The notes under the pieces were generated by a model. That model ran no database searches. It had not been told where the DNA came from and saw only the letters and a list, made by a program, of their open reading frames with translations. Made by a program: the position numbers and the translations under genes. 43,484 nt of DNA, from positions 1-43,484 of the forward strand of contig JALTNO010000283.1 in assembly GCA_027000645.1 (NCBI GenBank), in the 5' to 3' direction. This DNA comes from Paracoccaceae bacterium. Its GTDB lineage: Bacteria; Pseudomonadota; Alphaproteobacteria; Rhodobacterales; Rhodobacteraceae. Positions 7,453-39,143 of the stretch are shown piece by piece (position 1 is the first letter of the stretch; every line of letters begins with the position of its first letter).

Positions 7453-8343
7453 ATGATCAGATCGATGACGGGGTTTGCCTCGGCCAAGGGGGCGCTTGGG
7501 ACCTATGGCTGGAGCTGGGAGTTGCGCAGCGTCAACGGCAAGGGGCTGGATCTGCGGCTGCGGGTGCCGGACTGGCTCGAGGGGCTGGAGGCGGCCCTGC
7601 GCGCAGAGCTTGCCCGGTCGGTGGCGCGCGGCAACGTCACGCTGACCCTGCGCCTGACCCGCGCCGACGAGGCTGCCGGGCTCAGCCTCAATCCGGGGGC
7701 GCTGGCTTCGGTGCTGGACGCGCTGGCGGCGGTCGAGGCGCAGGCGATGGCGCGCGGTATCGCGCTGGCGCCGTCGCGGGCCAGCGACATCCTTTCGGTT
7801 CGCGGCGTGCTCGAGGCCGGCGCGGGCGATGACGACACCGCGCCGCTGATTGCGCAGTTGAAGGCCGAGTTCCCGGCGCTGGTGCAGGCCTTCGTGACCA
7901 TGCGCGAAGAGGAAGGCGCGGCGCTGGCGCGGATTCTCGGCGACCAGTTGACCATGGTCGAGGCGCTGGTCGCGCAGGCGGCGGAGCTGGCCGAGGCGCG
8001 TCGGGGCCTCATGGCCGAGACGCTGCGCGCGAATCTGGCGCGGGTGATGGAGAATGCCGACGGCGCCGATCCCGACCGGGTGGCGCAGGAGCTGGCGCTG
8101 ATCGCGGTGAAATCCGACGTGAACGAAGAGATTGACCGCCTGCGCGCCCATGTGGCCGCGGCGCGGGCGCTTCTGGACAAGGGCGGGCCGGTGGGGCGCA
8201 AGCTGGATTTCCTGATGCAGGAGTTCAACCGCGAGGCCAACACGCTGTGCTCCAAGGCGCAGAATTCCGAACTTACGGCGGTGGGGCTGGATCTGAAGGC
8301 GGTGATCGACCAGATGCGCGAGCAGGTCCAGAACATCGAATGA
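7453..8343 (+). CDS. yicC: YicC/YloC family endoribonuclease
   Basis: [13 protein letters not shown]...[19 protein letters not shown]...[23 protein letters not shown]. Confidence 0.95.
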
Positions 8344-9014
8344 CGACGCGAACGACGACGGGGGACAAGACGATGCCGGATCGGCGCGGGCTGCTCATCA
8401 TCCTGTCCTCGCCTTCGGGCGCGGGCAAATCGACCCTGTCGCGCCGGCTGATGGCGTGGGACCCCACCATCGCCTTTTCGGTCAGCGCCACCACCCGCCG
8501 CCCGCGCCCCGGCGAGGTGGACGGCAGGGACTACCATTTCCTCTCGGAAGAGGAATTCAAGCGCGCGGTGGCGGCGGGCGAGATGCTGGAACATGCCCAT
8601 GTGTTCGGCCATTTCTACGGCTCGCCCCGGGCGGCGGTGCAGGAGGCCATCGAGGCGGGCAAGGACGTGCTGTTCGACATCGACTGGCAGGGGGCGCAGC
8701 AGATCCGCAACTCGGCGCTGGGGCTGCACACGCTGTCGATCTTCCTGCTGCCGCCGTCGATCCGCGAACTGCGCCGCCGGCTGGAAAGCCGCGGCCAGGA
8801 CAGCCCCGAGGTGATCGCGCGGCGGATGCAGAAGAGCTGGGACGAGATCAGCCACTGGGACGGTTACGACTTCGTGCTGATCAATGACGATCTCGACCTG
8901 ACCGAGCGGCGCCTGATCACCATCGTCGAGGCCACCCGCCTGCGCCGCATCCAGCAGCCCGGCCTGACCGAGCATGTCCGTCGGCTGCACCGGGAATTCG
9001 AGGAGATGACATGA
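8340..9014 (+). CDS. gmk: guanylate kinase
   Basis: [21 protein letters not shown]...[31 protein letters not shown] overlap with yicC. Confidence 0.96.
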
Positions 9015-34619: not shown

Positions 34620-34656
34620 CATGTGCGAAGACGCGCCGATGTCAGTGGATTGTCAG
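34616..34656. promoter_or_regulatory. CTGACAT half site plus tandem ATGTCAG-N4-TTGTCAG direct repeat (11-bp period)
   Basis: upstream of the PepSY-RR-HK unit; same core upstream of cytochrome b gene. Confidence 0.55.
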
Positions 34657-34679
34657 GCCGCCAGGTCCATACTGTCCCG

Positions 34680-35000
34680 ATGAAGCTGCGCATCCTTCCG
34701 ATTCTCCTGCTTGCCGCTGCCCGGCCGGTGCCGGTCGGGGCCTCGGACGACAACCAGCGCGCGCGCGAAGCGGTCGAGGCGCAACAGGCGCTGCCGCTGG
34801 CCGAGATCCTGCCCGGCATCCTTGAACGGTTCGATGCCAGCCTGCTGGAGGCCGAATTCGAAGGCGACCGCAACGGGCCGGTCTATGAATTCGAGCTGAT
34901 CACCGGATCGGGGCAGATGATCGAGGTAAAGGTTGACGCGGCCACTGGCGAGGTGATCGAAATCGAAGGAGATCGCAGCGAGGAAGGGATGGAAGACTGA
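34680..35000 (+). CDS. PepSY domain periplasmic protein
   Basis: signal peptide then FEGDRNGPVYEFELITGSGQMIEVKVDAATGEVIEIEGD. Confidence 0.85.
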   Translation: MKLRILPILLLAAARPVPVGASDDNQRAREAVEAQQALPLAEILPGILERFDASLLEAEFEGDRNGPVYEFELITGSGQMIEVKVDAATGEVIEIEGDRSEEGMED

Positions 35001-35671
35001 TGCGGGTTCTGGCGGTCGAGGACGACCCGGATATCCTGGCGGACGTGAAGGCGGCGCTCGAATCCTCGGGTTTCAGCGTGGACACCTGCGAAGACGGCGA
35101 AGAGGCGTGGTTTCTCGGCGATACCGAGGATTACGTTCTGGTGGTGCTGGATCTGGGCCTGCCGGGCATGGACGGGCTGAGCGTGCTCAAGCGCTGGCGC
35201 GCGAACGGTCGCGAGATGCCGGTCCTGGTGCTGACCGCCCGCGGTGCCTGGCACGAGCGCGTCGAGGGCATCGAGACCGGCGCCGACGACTACCTGCCCA
35301 AGCCCTTCCGCATGGAGGAACTGGTCGCCCGGGCGCGGGCCCTGGTGCGCCGTTCGGGCGGGATGGGGGCGCCGGTGCAGAGGATGGGCGATCTGACCGT
35401 GGACACCAACCGGATGACGGTGTCGCTGCGCGGCGTTCCGGTGCCGGTGACGGCGCTGGAATATCGCCTGCTGGCCTACCTGCTGCTCAACCGCGACCGG
35501 ACCGTGCCGCCGGGCGAACTGCTCGAACATCTCTATGGTGACGACGACGCGCGCGAGGCCAACGCGCTCGAGGCGGTGGTGGCGCGGCTGCGGCGCAAGC
35601 TGGGCAAGGGCGTGATCGGCACCCGCCGCGGTTTCGGCTATTTCCTCGAGCCGGGGGAGAGCGGCGGGTGA
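35000..35671 (+). CDS. OmpR/PhoP-family response regulator
   Basis: MRVLAVEDDPDILADVKAALESSGF...LDLGLPGMDGLSVLKRWR; winged helix. Confidence 0.93.
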   Translation: MRVLAVEDDPDILADVKAALESSGFSVDTCEDGEEAWFLGDTEDYVLVVLDLGLPGMDGLSVLKRWRANGREMPVLVLTARGAWHERVEGIETGADDYLPKPFRMEELVARARALVRRSGGMGAPVQRMGDLTVDTNRMTVSLRGVPVPVTALEYRLLAYLLLNRDRTVPPGELLEHLYGDDDAREANALEAVVARLRRKLGKGVIGTRRGFGYFLEPGESGG

Positions 35672-37020
35672 AGGGGCGCTCGCTGCGGCTGCGGCTGGTC
35701 GCGGCCAGCGCGATTTCGGTGATGGTGGCGCTGGCGCTGGCCTTTTTCGGCCTGACCCGGCTGTTTGCCTCGCATGTGGAACGCCAGGCGGTGCATGAGC
35801 TGACCGTGCAGCTCGACCAGCTTCTGGCCGGGATCGAGCGCGACGCCGATGGCCGGCTGGTGGTGAGCGACGGCCCCAGCGACGCCCGCTTCGTCCAGCC
35901 CCTGGGCGGGCTTTACTGGCAGATCGAGGCCGAGGGCCGGCAGTTGCGCTCGCGCTCGCTGTGGGATTTCGTCATGCCCCTGCCGGTGGAGGATCTGTCC
36001 GACGGCACCATCCGTGTCCGCACCCTGCCAGGGCCGGGGGGCACGCGGCTGCTGGCGGTGCAGCGCCGGGTGATCCTGCCCGCCCGGCTGGGCCGTGTGC
36101 CCCTGGTCGCGGCGGTGGCCACCGATACCCGGCGGCTGGATAAGGCGGTCGAGGAATTTCGCGAGGATCTGCTGCCCTATACCGGGCTGCTGGCGGTGTT
36201 CCTGATCCTGGCAGCAGGGATCCAGGTGGTCGTGGGCCTGCGCCCGCTCGACAAGGTTGGGCGCAAGGTGGCCGAGGTGCGCTCGGGCGAGATTTCGCGC
36301 CTGGGCTCGGAATTCCCGTCCGAAATCCAGCCCCTTGCGCAAGAGGTCGATGCATTGCTGGCCCAGCGCGAACGCGACATCGAGCAGGCCCGCCGGCGCG
36401 CCGGGGATCTGGCGCATGGGCTCAAGACCCCGCTTCAGGCGCTTCTGGGCGAGGCCGGGCGGCTGCGCGCGGCCGGGCAGGAAGCGGCGGCCGATGCGAT
36501 CGAGCAGATCACCGACACCATGCGCCGGCACGTGGACCGGGAACTTGCGCGGGTGCGCGTGGCTGCCCGCGCCGCCTCGGCGCAGTGCGACCTGGCCGAG
36601 GTTGCCGGGCGGGTGGTCGCGGTGGTGCGGCGCGCGGCCGGGGGAGACGGGTTGCTGTGGCAGCTGGACATTCCCGCCGGAACCCTTGTCGCGGCCGAGG
36701 CCGAGGATGTGCTCGAAATCCTCGGTGCGCTGGTGGAAAATGCCGCCCGCTATGCCCGCAGGCAGGTCCGCCTGAGCGCTGCGGAGCAGGACGGACGCGT
36801 GGTCCTGTCGGTCGAGGATGACGGTCCCGGAATGCCCGACGACCTGATCGGCCGCCTCGGATCGCGTGGCGTGCGTGCCGATGAAAGCGGCCCCGGAACC
36901 GGGCTGGGCCTGGCCATCGCCCGCGAGGTTTCCGAGGCCCTGGGCGGCGGGCTGGAGCTTGGCCGGGGGGCTCTGGGCGGCTGCCGGGTCCGGGTCGTCC
37001 TGCCGCGGGCGGCAATCTGA
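35668..37020 (+). CDS. PhoQ-like sensor histidine kinase
   Basis: N-terminal TM, HAMP-like segment, RAGDLAHGLKTPLQALLGEAGRL, DDGPGMPDDLIGRLGSRGVR, GTGLGLAIAREV; GTG start overlapping RR. Confidence 0.92.
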   Translation: MKGRSLRLRLVAASAISVMVALALAFFGLTRLFASHVERQAVHELTVQLDQLLAGIERDADGRLVVSDGPSDARFVQPLGGLYWQIEAEGRQLRSRSLWDFVMPLPVEDLSDGTIRVRTLPGPGGTRLLAVQRRVILPARLGRVPLVAAVATDTRRLDKAVEEFREDLLPYTGLLAVFLILAAGIQVVVGLRPLDKVGRKVAEVRSGEISRLGSEFPSEIQPLAQEVDALLAQRERDIEQARRRAGDLAHGLKTPLQALLGEAGRLRAAGQEAAADAIEQITDTMRRHVDRELARVRVAARAASAQCDLAEVAGRVVAVVRRAAGGDGLLWQLDIPAGTLVAAEAEDVLEILGALVENAARYARRQVRLSAAEQDGRVVLSVEDDGPGMPDDLIGRLGSRGVRADESGPGTGLGLAIAREVSEALGGGLELGRGALGGCRVRVVLPRAAI

Positions 37021-37034
37021 CATTTCGCTGACAG
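37017..37034 (+). promoter_or_regulatory. CTGACAT-N4-CTGACAG direct repeat (11-bp period) upstream of cytochrome b-SHP-DHC
   Basis: read directly; same core as 34639..34656 in inverse orientation. Confidence 0.55.
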
Positions 37035-37059
37035 CGCGGATCAGGGAGCGATCAGCGCC

Positions 37060-37100: not shown

Positions 37101-38258
37101 ATGATGAATCAGTCGCAGATCCTCGCCCCCGATGCGCGCGCCGCCCGGCACCAGGTCTGGGACGTTTTCCTGCGCCTGTTTCACTGGTCGCTGGCGGCGT
37201 CGGTCACGGTGGCGCTGGTGACGGGGTTCCTTCTGGATGCCTCGTGGGTCCGGCTGCACCTGGGCGCGGGCATCCTTGCGGTGATCCTCGTGATGGCGCG
37301 GATCGTCTGGGGGTTTGCCGGCCCGGCCTATGCCCGGTTCGAGCAGTTCCTGCCGCGCCCGGGCGCACTGCGCGCCTATCTGCGCGAACATCTCGCCGGG
37401 GCGCCCCGTCGCCGCCATGTCGGTCACAACCCGCTGGGCGCGCTGATGGTGGTGGCGCTGCTGCTGGCCGTTCTCGGGCTGGGCGCCACCGGTCTTGCCT
37501 ATCTGGGCGGCGGGCTGAAGACCGGGCCGCTGGCCACGATCCTGCCGGCCACGCAGACCGGGTTCTGGTCCGAAACCCATGAAGCCCTGGCCGCGATCAT
37601 CCTCGGCCTGATCGTACTGCATCTTGGCGGCGTGATTCATGAAAGCCGCCGCTGCGGCGAAAACCTGGCGCGGGCCATGGTCACCGGCTGCAAGGAGGCC
37701 CGCTCGGGCGATCTGGTCGCCCCGCACCGGCCGGCCAGGCCGATCCTGGCGGCGGCGGTTGTCCTGGCCCTGCTGGCCTCGGGCGGTGCGGCGGTGGTCG
37801 CCCTGTCAGGCCGGCCGCTGCAGGACCCGCCGGTGGCGGCGGCCGAATTCCCCGCCGTTTACGCCGATGAATGCGCCGCCTGTCACATGGCCTATCACCC
37901 GGCGCTGAGATCGGCTTCGTCCTGGCAGGCGCTGATGGCCCGGCTCGACGACCATTTCGGCGAGGATGCCAGCCTGCCCGACGAGACGGGCGCCGAGATC
38001 ACCGCCTGGCTGACGGCCAATTCCGCCGAAACCGTGGACAACCGCCCCGCCAGCCTGTGGCGCGACCTGTCGCCCCTCCCGGTCGTGGCCTTGCCCGACA
38101 CCCCGCAATGGCAGGAGCTGCACGAGAACGTGGATCCGGCGCTTTTCAAGCGGCGCGCGGTCTATTCGCGGTCGAACTGCGCGGCCTGCCACCGTGACGC
38201 CGAAAGCGGCTGGTTCAGCCCCTTCGCAATTTCCATTCCAAAGGAGAACACGCAATGA
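37101..38258 (+). CDS. cytochrome b561-type membrane protein fused to a C-terminal diheme cytochrome c (DHC-like) domain
   Basis: LRLFHWSLAASVTVALVTGFLL...HLGGVIHESRR; then ECAACHMAY and NCAACHRDA heme motifs. Confidence 0.9.
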   Translation: MMNQSQILAPDARAARHQVWDVFLRLFHWSLAASVTVALVTGFLLDASWVRLHLGAGILAVILVMARIVWGFAGPAYARFEQFLPRPGALRAYLREHLAGAPRRRHVGHNPLGALMVVALLLAVLGLGATGLAYLGGGLKTGPLATILPATQTGFWSETHEALAAIILGLIVLHLGGVIHESRRCGENLARAMVTGCKEARSGDLVAPHRPARPILAAAVVLALLASGGAAVVALSGRPLQDPPVAAAEFPAVYADECAACHMAYHPALRSASSWQALMARLDDHFGEDASLPDETGAEITAWLTANSAETVDNRPASLWRDLSPLPVVALPDTPQWQELHENVDPALFKRRAVYSRSNCAACHRDAESGWFSPFAISIPKENTQ

Positions 38259-38650
38259 AAAAAGCCCTGATCCTGCCCGTCCTGCTGGCGATGGCGCCTC
38301 CGGCCTTGGCCGGGGATACCTCGCCCGGGGCGCTGATCGAGGCCTACAGCGCCCAGTCCGGTTCGGCGCCGGTGCCCGAAAACGGCAAGGCCCTGTTTCT
38401 GGGCAAGCATGTCGGGGGCAAGCCCGATACGCCCTCATGCGCGACCTGCCACACGAACGATCCCCGCAAGGGCGGTCAGGCACGGACCGGAAAGCCGATC
38501 GACCCCATGGCCCCTTCGGTGAATCCGAAGCGCTTCACCGATACCAGGTTCGTCGAGAAATGGTTTCGCCGCAACTGCAACTCGGTCCTGGGGCGCGAAT
38601 GCAGCGCGCAGGAAAAGGCGGACATCATCGCCTGGCTGAGCAGCCTGTGA
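38255..38650 (+). CDS. sphaeroides heme protein (SHP)-like high-spin cytochrome c, DUF1924 family
   Basis: signal peptide, CATCH heme motif, KWFRRNCNSVLGREC; Asn at predicted mature position 88. Confidence 0.88.
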   Translation: MKKALILPVLLAMAPPALAGDTSPGALIEAYSAQSGSAPVPENGKALFLGKHVGGKPDTPSCATCHTNDPRKGGQARTGKPIDPMAPSVNPKRFTDTRFVEKWFRRNCNSVLGRECSAQEKADIIAWLSSL

Positions 38651-38681
38651 CGGACAGATGAGACAACGGAAAGGATCTCAC

Positions 38682-39143
38682 ATGAAACGCAACATTCTTC
38701 TTGCCTCGCTCATCATCGTGGCGATGCCCGCGCTTGCCGATGACGGGCGCATGATACGGCCGGTCACGAACGCATTGACCCAGTCCGAGTGCAGCGCCTG
38801 TCACATGGCCTATCCGGCCGGGTTCCTGCCGGCCCGGTCGTGGAAGAAGATCATGACCACGCTCGAAGATCATTTCGGCGAGGACGCGTCGCTGGACGAA
38901 GCCAGCCGGGCCGAGATCGAGGCCTATCTGGTGGCCAATGCGGCCGATGCCGGCGGGCGGCGGTCGGGGGTGCTGCGGCGGCTGGATGCGGCCGACACGC
39001 CCATGCGGATTTCCGAACTGCCGTGGTTCAGGCGCGAACACAGCGGCGAGGTGTCGCCGCGCCGGCTGAAGAAGGCCGGGTCCTGGGCCAACTGCAACGT
39101 CTGCCACCGCGGCGCGGAAAAGGGCTATTTCGAGGACGACTGA
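38682..39143 (+). CDS. periplasmic diheme cytochrome c (DHC)
   Basis: signal peptide; ECSACHMAY...SWKKIMTTLEDHFGEDASLDE...NCNVCHRGAEKGYFED. Confidence 0.9.
   Translation: MKRNILLASLIIVAMPALADDGRMIRPVTNALTQSECSACHMAYPAGFLPARSWKKIMTTLEDHFGEDASLDEASRAEIEAYLVANAADAGGRRSGVLRRLDAADTPMRISELPWFRREHSGEVSPRRLKKAGSWANCNVCHRGAEKGYFEDD

Follow-up and report, generated by a model that had tools for sequence, protein, structure and literature searches.

An SHP cytochrome relay operon of Rhodobacteraceae, probably controlled by an adjoining Orf1-RR-SK1 system through a shared 11-bp-periodic operator

What controls the SHP operon of Rhodobacteraceae, and in response to which signal? SHP is well studied yet has no settled physiological role, and regulatory genes were absent from every Rhodobacteraceae SHP operon examined in a 2010 survey (PMC2909971). 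The window analyzed here is a stretch of 43,484 nt from Paracoccaceae bacterium (Rhodobacteraceae; assembly GCA_027000645.1, contig JALTNO010000283.1, positions 1-43,484, forward strand), and its three-gene SHP operon is of a known kind. The CytB/mDHC-SHP-sDHC operon of R. sphaeroides and further Rhodobacteraceae was described in 2010 by Meyer, Kyndt and Cusanovich, who reported the chimera and a pair of DHCs, named mDHC (fused) and sDHC (soluble), and proposed the relay (PMC2909971). The window operon resembles theirs in gene content, gene order, fusion, spacing, signature residues and proposed electron path. Unlike the published Rhodobacteraceae SHP operons (PMC2909971), it is adjoined on the same strand by Orf1-RR-SK1 genes. 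This linkage of SK1 to an SHP operon is new for Rhodobacteraceae, and the relay operon is probably under the control of its neighbors through an operator that both share.

All three cytochrome genes lie on the forward strand. The first (37101..38258) encodes the CytB/mDHC chimera of 385 aa, identified from profile searches, the alignment of fused proteins and a structural model. It carries a Ni_hydr_CYTB domain (PF01292, residues 19-196, E 7e-21) and a DHC domain (PF09626, residues 254-372, E 2e-31) in a single open frame, as expected from the original prediction that the C-terminus of the cytochrome b protein is a DHC. The closest solved structure to the fused DHC domain by sequence is DHC 2fw5 (E 1e-20). 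The second gene (38255..38650) overlaps the first by 4 bp and encodes SHP, a DUF1924 monoheme c-type cytochrome (PF09086, E 3e-37). The third (38658..39143; ATG 38682 is the likelier start) follows after 7 bp and encodes sDHC, a soluble periplasmic diheme cytochrome c (PF09626, E 6e-37; 2fw5, E 9e-53). These Pfam and PDB matches confirm the predicted b561-DHC fusion, SHP and free DHC and their positions, with all three families (cytochrome b561, DHC and DUF1924) recovered. The top PDB match of SHP is 1dw0, the R. sphaeroides SHP (E 3e-41). After cleavage between ALA and GDT, the mature protein is identical to 1dw0 at 65 of 112 positions in a gap-free alignment, and its single CxxCH motif (CATCH, with His47), Trp84, Asn88, Cys89 and Cys97 occupy the same positions. 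Asn88, at the position of the sixth heme ligand, is encoded by the AAC codon at 38573..38575, and its predicted numbering as mature residue 88 agrees with 1dw0.

In an alignment of 13 fused proteins, C258/C261/H262, H285, H341 and C360/C363/H364 are invariant, and H28, H53, H109, H160 and H174 of the membrane part are kept. The model of the fusion based on this alignment contains helices at residues 22-44, 47-73, 111-138, 150-185 and 214-237, followed by the DHC domain; the membrane part is good and the DHC part, on which no conclusion depends, has low confidence, and a single-sequence model reached a pLDDT of 45. The best fold match of the fusion model is FdnI (1kqf_C, TM 0.62 by target length, E 4e-3). 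The chimera thus joins b561 and DHC parts in one frame with an extra helix, and the fifth transmembrane helix (214-237) would place the DHC domain in the periplasm.

The original prediction took the operon to comprise the three cytochrome genes. These stand, but the unit reaches 2.5 kb further upstream, where Orf1-RR-SK1 (34623-37020) adjoins them. Orf1 (34623..35000, forward strand; likely start ATG 34680) encodes a PepSY-domain periplasmic protein (PF03413, E 7e-11), a sensor accessory. RR (35000..35671, forward strand) is a response regulator of the OmpR/PhoB family (PF00072 and PF00486) that shares 75-83% identity among linked loci. SK1 (35668..37020, forward strand) is a sensor histidine kinase (HATPase_c, E 6e-19; HisKA weak) with LGGLYWQ and RSRSLWD in its periplasmic part. 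These motifs and the adjoining PepSY Orf1 agree with the marks of the SK1 class, namely variants of SGVYWQ and RSRSLWD and a linked Orf1 (PMC2909971). PhoQ and PmrA give the highest scores for SK1 and RR, but these scores do not reach the curated cut-offs. SsoR of Shewanella was considered as a relative of RR and rejected, being part of a different system. The Orf1 frame is preceded, at a distance of 3 bp, by a low-molecular-weight phosphatase-like gene (PF01451; 34140-34619).

The same six-gene run was found in Aliiroseovarius (L026), Ruegeria (L027), Thiosulfatihalobacter (L035) and the genomes G226 and G012, and the Orf1-RR-SK1 gene order matches that of the window in L026, L027, L035, L088 and L089. 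In L026, Orf1 is preceded by genes of mercury type, judged by eye to be MerR/T/P-like. The remaining SHP-containing members of the family have no linked Orf1-RR-SK1, and SK1 is also found alone in Rhodobacteraceae. With regulators and SHP genes in one run, the window resembles the six-gene clusters of Shewanella oneidensis, Magnetococcus and others (PMC2909971). Those clusters, however, were described without a chimera, whereas the window CytB carries the fused mDHC.

Each of the six SK1-linked loci has a CTGACA-N5-CTGACA pair ahead of Orf1 and another ahead of CytB. Upstream of CytB in the window, the pair is part of a composite operator, CTGACA-N5-CTGACA-N5-GATCAG-N5-GATCAG (37017..37055, forward strand), whose four half-sites lie 11 bp apart and which begins on the SK1 stop codon; its general form is CTGACA-N5-CTGACA-N5-NRTCAG-N5-NRTCAG. 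Upstream of Orf1, the direct repeat CTGACA-N5-CTGACA with 11-bp period lies on the reverse strand (34640..34656), at the same place in 6/6 linked loci. Both window sites are exact and no others occur at up to one mismatch, with 0.06 expected, and none of 100 shuffled windows contained two sites. Operators of the OmpR/PhoB family consist of direct half-sites with an 11-bp period. Both predicted target promoters carry 11-bp-spaced direct repeats of this type, and they differ from the family pattern in the half-site CTGACA and, in the composite form, in two inverted distal half-sites. No description of the operator was found in the searchable literature, most of the subscription literature being out of reach. 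The shared operator is very likely real.

The two-half-site motif alone was rejected as a genome-wide diagnostic; it occurs at least once somewhere in 144 of 298 family genomes, and the four-part form was therefore tested instead, in 60 genomes at up to one mismatch and with the reversed sequence as control. The operator was first noticed by inspecting the SK1-linked set, and the additional genomes in which it was then sought include several close relatives. The full operator is present in 19 of the 24 SK1-containing Rhodobacteraceae genomes and in 1 of the 30 that have no SK1 (Fisher p 4e-9). The reversed operator gave no match in the 60 genomes, and all zero-mismatch four-part sites among them lie at SK1 or SHP operons. 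The SK1-containing genomes without a full operator are G226, G047, G182, G170 and G207. Single two-part sites elsewhere in SK1-containing genomes (L222, L223, L225, L229, L230, L237) have no distal half-sites in register, and it is the position and the four-part form of the operator that are diagnostic. In G380, a 98% complete genome, the operator (one mismatch) stands upstream of CytB at the SHP operon (L111) and SK1 was not detected. At least five SHP-containing Rhodobacteraceae genomes have neither SK1 nor the operator, so another form of control exists.

R. sphaeroides (G052), whose encoded SHP is identical to 1dw0, separates the two operons, with SHP on replicon C4 and SK1 on replicon C5. 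In strain 2.4.1, Orf1 is RSP3510 and SK1 is RSP3512, and the RR gene lies between them. Exactly two zero-mismatch operators occur in this genome, one upstream of CytB (C4:623137-623174) and one upstream of Orf1-RR-SK1 (C5:589344-589381), with a chance expectation of about 0.0001 under equal base frequencies. One exact site per operon supports the 2010 guess that SK1 might regulate SHP in R. sphaeroides, where PrrBA control of SHP has also been reported (PMC2909971). Judged from the sites, SK1 is very probably the regulator of SHP, also in genomes where the two are unlinked. That the operator belongs to another regulator, with SK1 co-occurring through operon adjacency alone, would fit the six genomes in which the two operons are adjacent, but it is highly improbable given the separate replicons of R. 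sphaeroides and the lone SK1 operons without SHP, which carry the operator too.

Related sites occur outside the family. In betaproteobacteria with SK1 and SHP divergent or near each other, CTGAAC-N5-CTGAAC was found in 5 of 6 loci, 4-74 bp before the SHP frame, two of the five with one mismatch and the rest exact; loci with other kinases (287 kb) contained two matches to this pair, each with one mismatch. L107 has a four-part CTGARC/GTTCAG form. Two alphaproteobacterial MAGs (L030, L032) carry the exact pair upstream of CytB, with SK1-like kinases elsewhere in the genome.

Under control by SK1, the system would probably work as follows. SK1 and its PepSY protein would sense a periplasmic condition, and phosphorylated RR would bind the 11-bp-periodic operator upstream of Orf1 and CytB, providing autoregulation at the former and probably switching on the cytochrome operon at the latter; the prediction for R. 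sphaeroides is the same control, exerted in trans. Quinol would then reduce the b561 module, and electrons would pass through the tethered mDHC and sDHC to SHP. This order, part of the original prediction, agrees with that proposed in 2010 (quinol to CytB to mDHC to sDHC to SHP; PMC2909971), and reduction of R. sphaeroides SHP by DHC is reported in work cited there. Reduction may release Asn88 of SHP from the iron and free the site for O2, NO or a similar ligand. Nothing in the SHP sequence marks it as a sensor; the linked kinase and PepSY protein are better candidates for that role. The operator bears on the 2010 puzzle of why Rhodobacteraceae SHP seemed to be without regulatory genes. It ties SHP to one sensor and offers a direct route to the inducing signal, and so to SHP function.

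The signal itself may be a metal. SK1 and Orf1 could sense a divalent or transition metal, with the acidic PepSY protein as binding partner, and the SHP chain could serve in the redox part of a response to metal or iron stress instead of acting on respiratory O2 or NO. PhoQ and PmrB are cation-responsive sensors, and the best scores of SK1 and RR, sub-threshold as they are, point in this direction, as does the binding of uranyl/iron or of lanthanides by other PepSY proteins. In L026, sDHC is followed after about 100 bp by a same-strand CDF cation-efflux gene (8062-8925), another lies behind the lone SK1 in L189, and CzcD/FieF genes near SHP operons were noted in 2010 (PMC2909971). Of 14 unlinked SK1 loci, 4 (L190:165-836, L187:3625-4287, L191:373-978, L189:49-3207) have RTX Ca-binding genes adjoining the SK1 operon, directly beside the operator in three of the four and divergent from Orf1 in R. 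sphaeroides (L190). In G131, an RTX gene follows SK1, with the operator between the two. RTX genes are possibly a second target of RR. Among the genes that Allochromatium vinosum induces most on pyrite are those of the SHP operon and its regulator, together with FieF and RND efflux, and Alvin_0020-0026, including DUF1924, DHCs, b561, RR and kinase, rise together (PMC11267869); we count this joint induction in favor of SK1 control of SHP. Growth on pyrite, however, alters much besides metal, no metal gene lies beside the window operon, and of the 83 loci of 4 kb or more searched by homology, only 3 contain CDF genes. We therefore regard a metal signal as possible and hold it tentatively. If it is correct, SHP would be part of a metal-linked redox response.

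SHP might instead work as an NO dioxygenase or oxygenase that receives its electrons from the relay, with SK1 sensing a nitrogen or amine signal. NO dioxygenase activity of R. sphaeroides SHP and amine binding by its reduced form are reported in work cited in PMC2909971, and Asn88 and Trp84 are conserved in the window SHP. Since the sensor resembles PhoQ-like kinases and no NO- or nitrite-related gene was seen within the operon, this seems rather unlikely. Control of the SHP operon by SK1 through the shared operator remains the preferred reading; its widest version would be an SK1 regulon with the SHP operon as main target (in cis in some genera, in trans in R. sphaeroides), CTGAAC relatives in betaproteobacteria and one other alphaproteobacterial locus, and a cation or metal as the signal. 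Taken whole, this version is speculative.

The two DHC modules carry a separate history. The mDHC and sDHC domains share 41% identity, and both match PF09626 with two CxxCH motifs and the conserved axial His, in keeping with the homology proposed originally. The proposed duplication is real, but it is old and not local, because in the DHC trees the mDHC and sDHC domains of alpha-, beta- and epsilonproteobacteria fall into distinct groups, each spanning these classes. Clear DHC matches are present in 10 of 298 genomes of the window family (nearly one genome per genus), and DHC matches occur in 14 of 387 genomes of the class and 121 of 399 of the phylum. CytB-DHC fusion is not rare: it was found in every complete Rhodobacteraceae operon detected and in most Campylobacterales loci, there in the order SHP-sDHC-CytB/mDHC, and CytB is unfused in gamma- and most betaproteobacteria. 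Chimeras were also listed in Rhodoferax, Campylobacter, Arcobacter, Sulfurospirillum and Wolinella (PMC2909971). All fused domains group together in the DHC trees, with support (79/82 to 90/76) that is not decisive, whereas the fused forms fall apart in the CytB tree. AU tests rejected local duplication in betaproteobacteria (p 0.0007) and did not reject it in alpha- (p 0.37) or epsilonproteobacteria (p 0.27). The DHC tree thus suggests a single origin of the mDHC fusion across three classes, which the CytB tree does not. An ancient fusion followed by secondary losses of mDHC would reconcile the two trees, in contrast to the 2010 proposal of multiple origins (PMC2909971). In two Campylobacterales and one Rhodobacteraceae (L197, L205, L097), CytB and the following DHC occupy two overlapping frames, which may reflect true fission, a frameshift or sequencing error.
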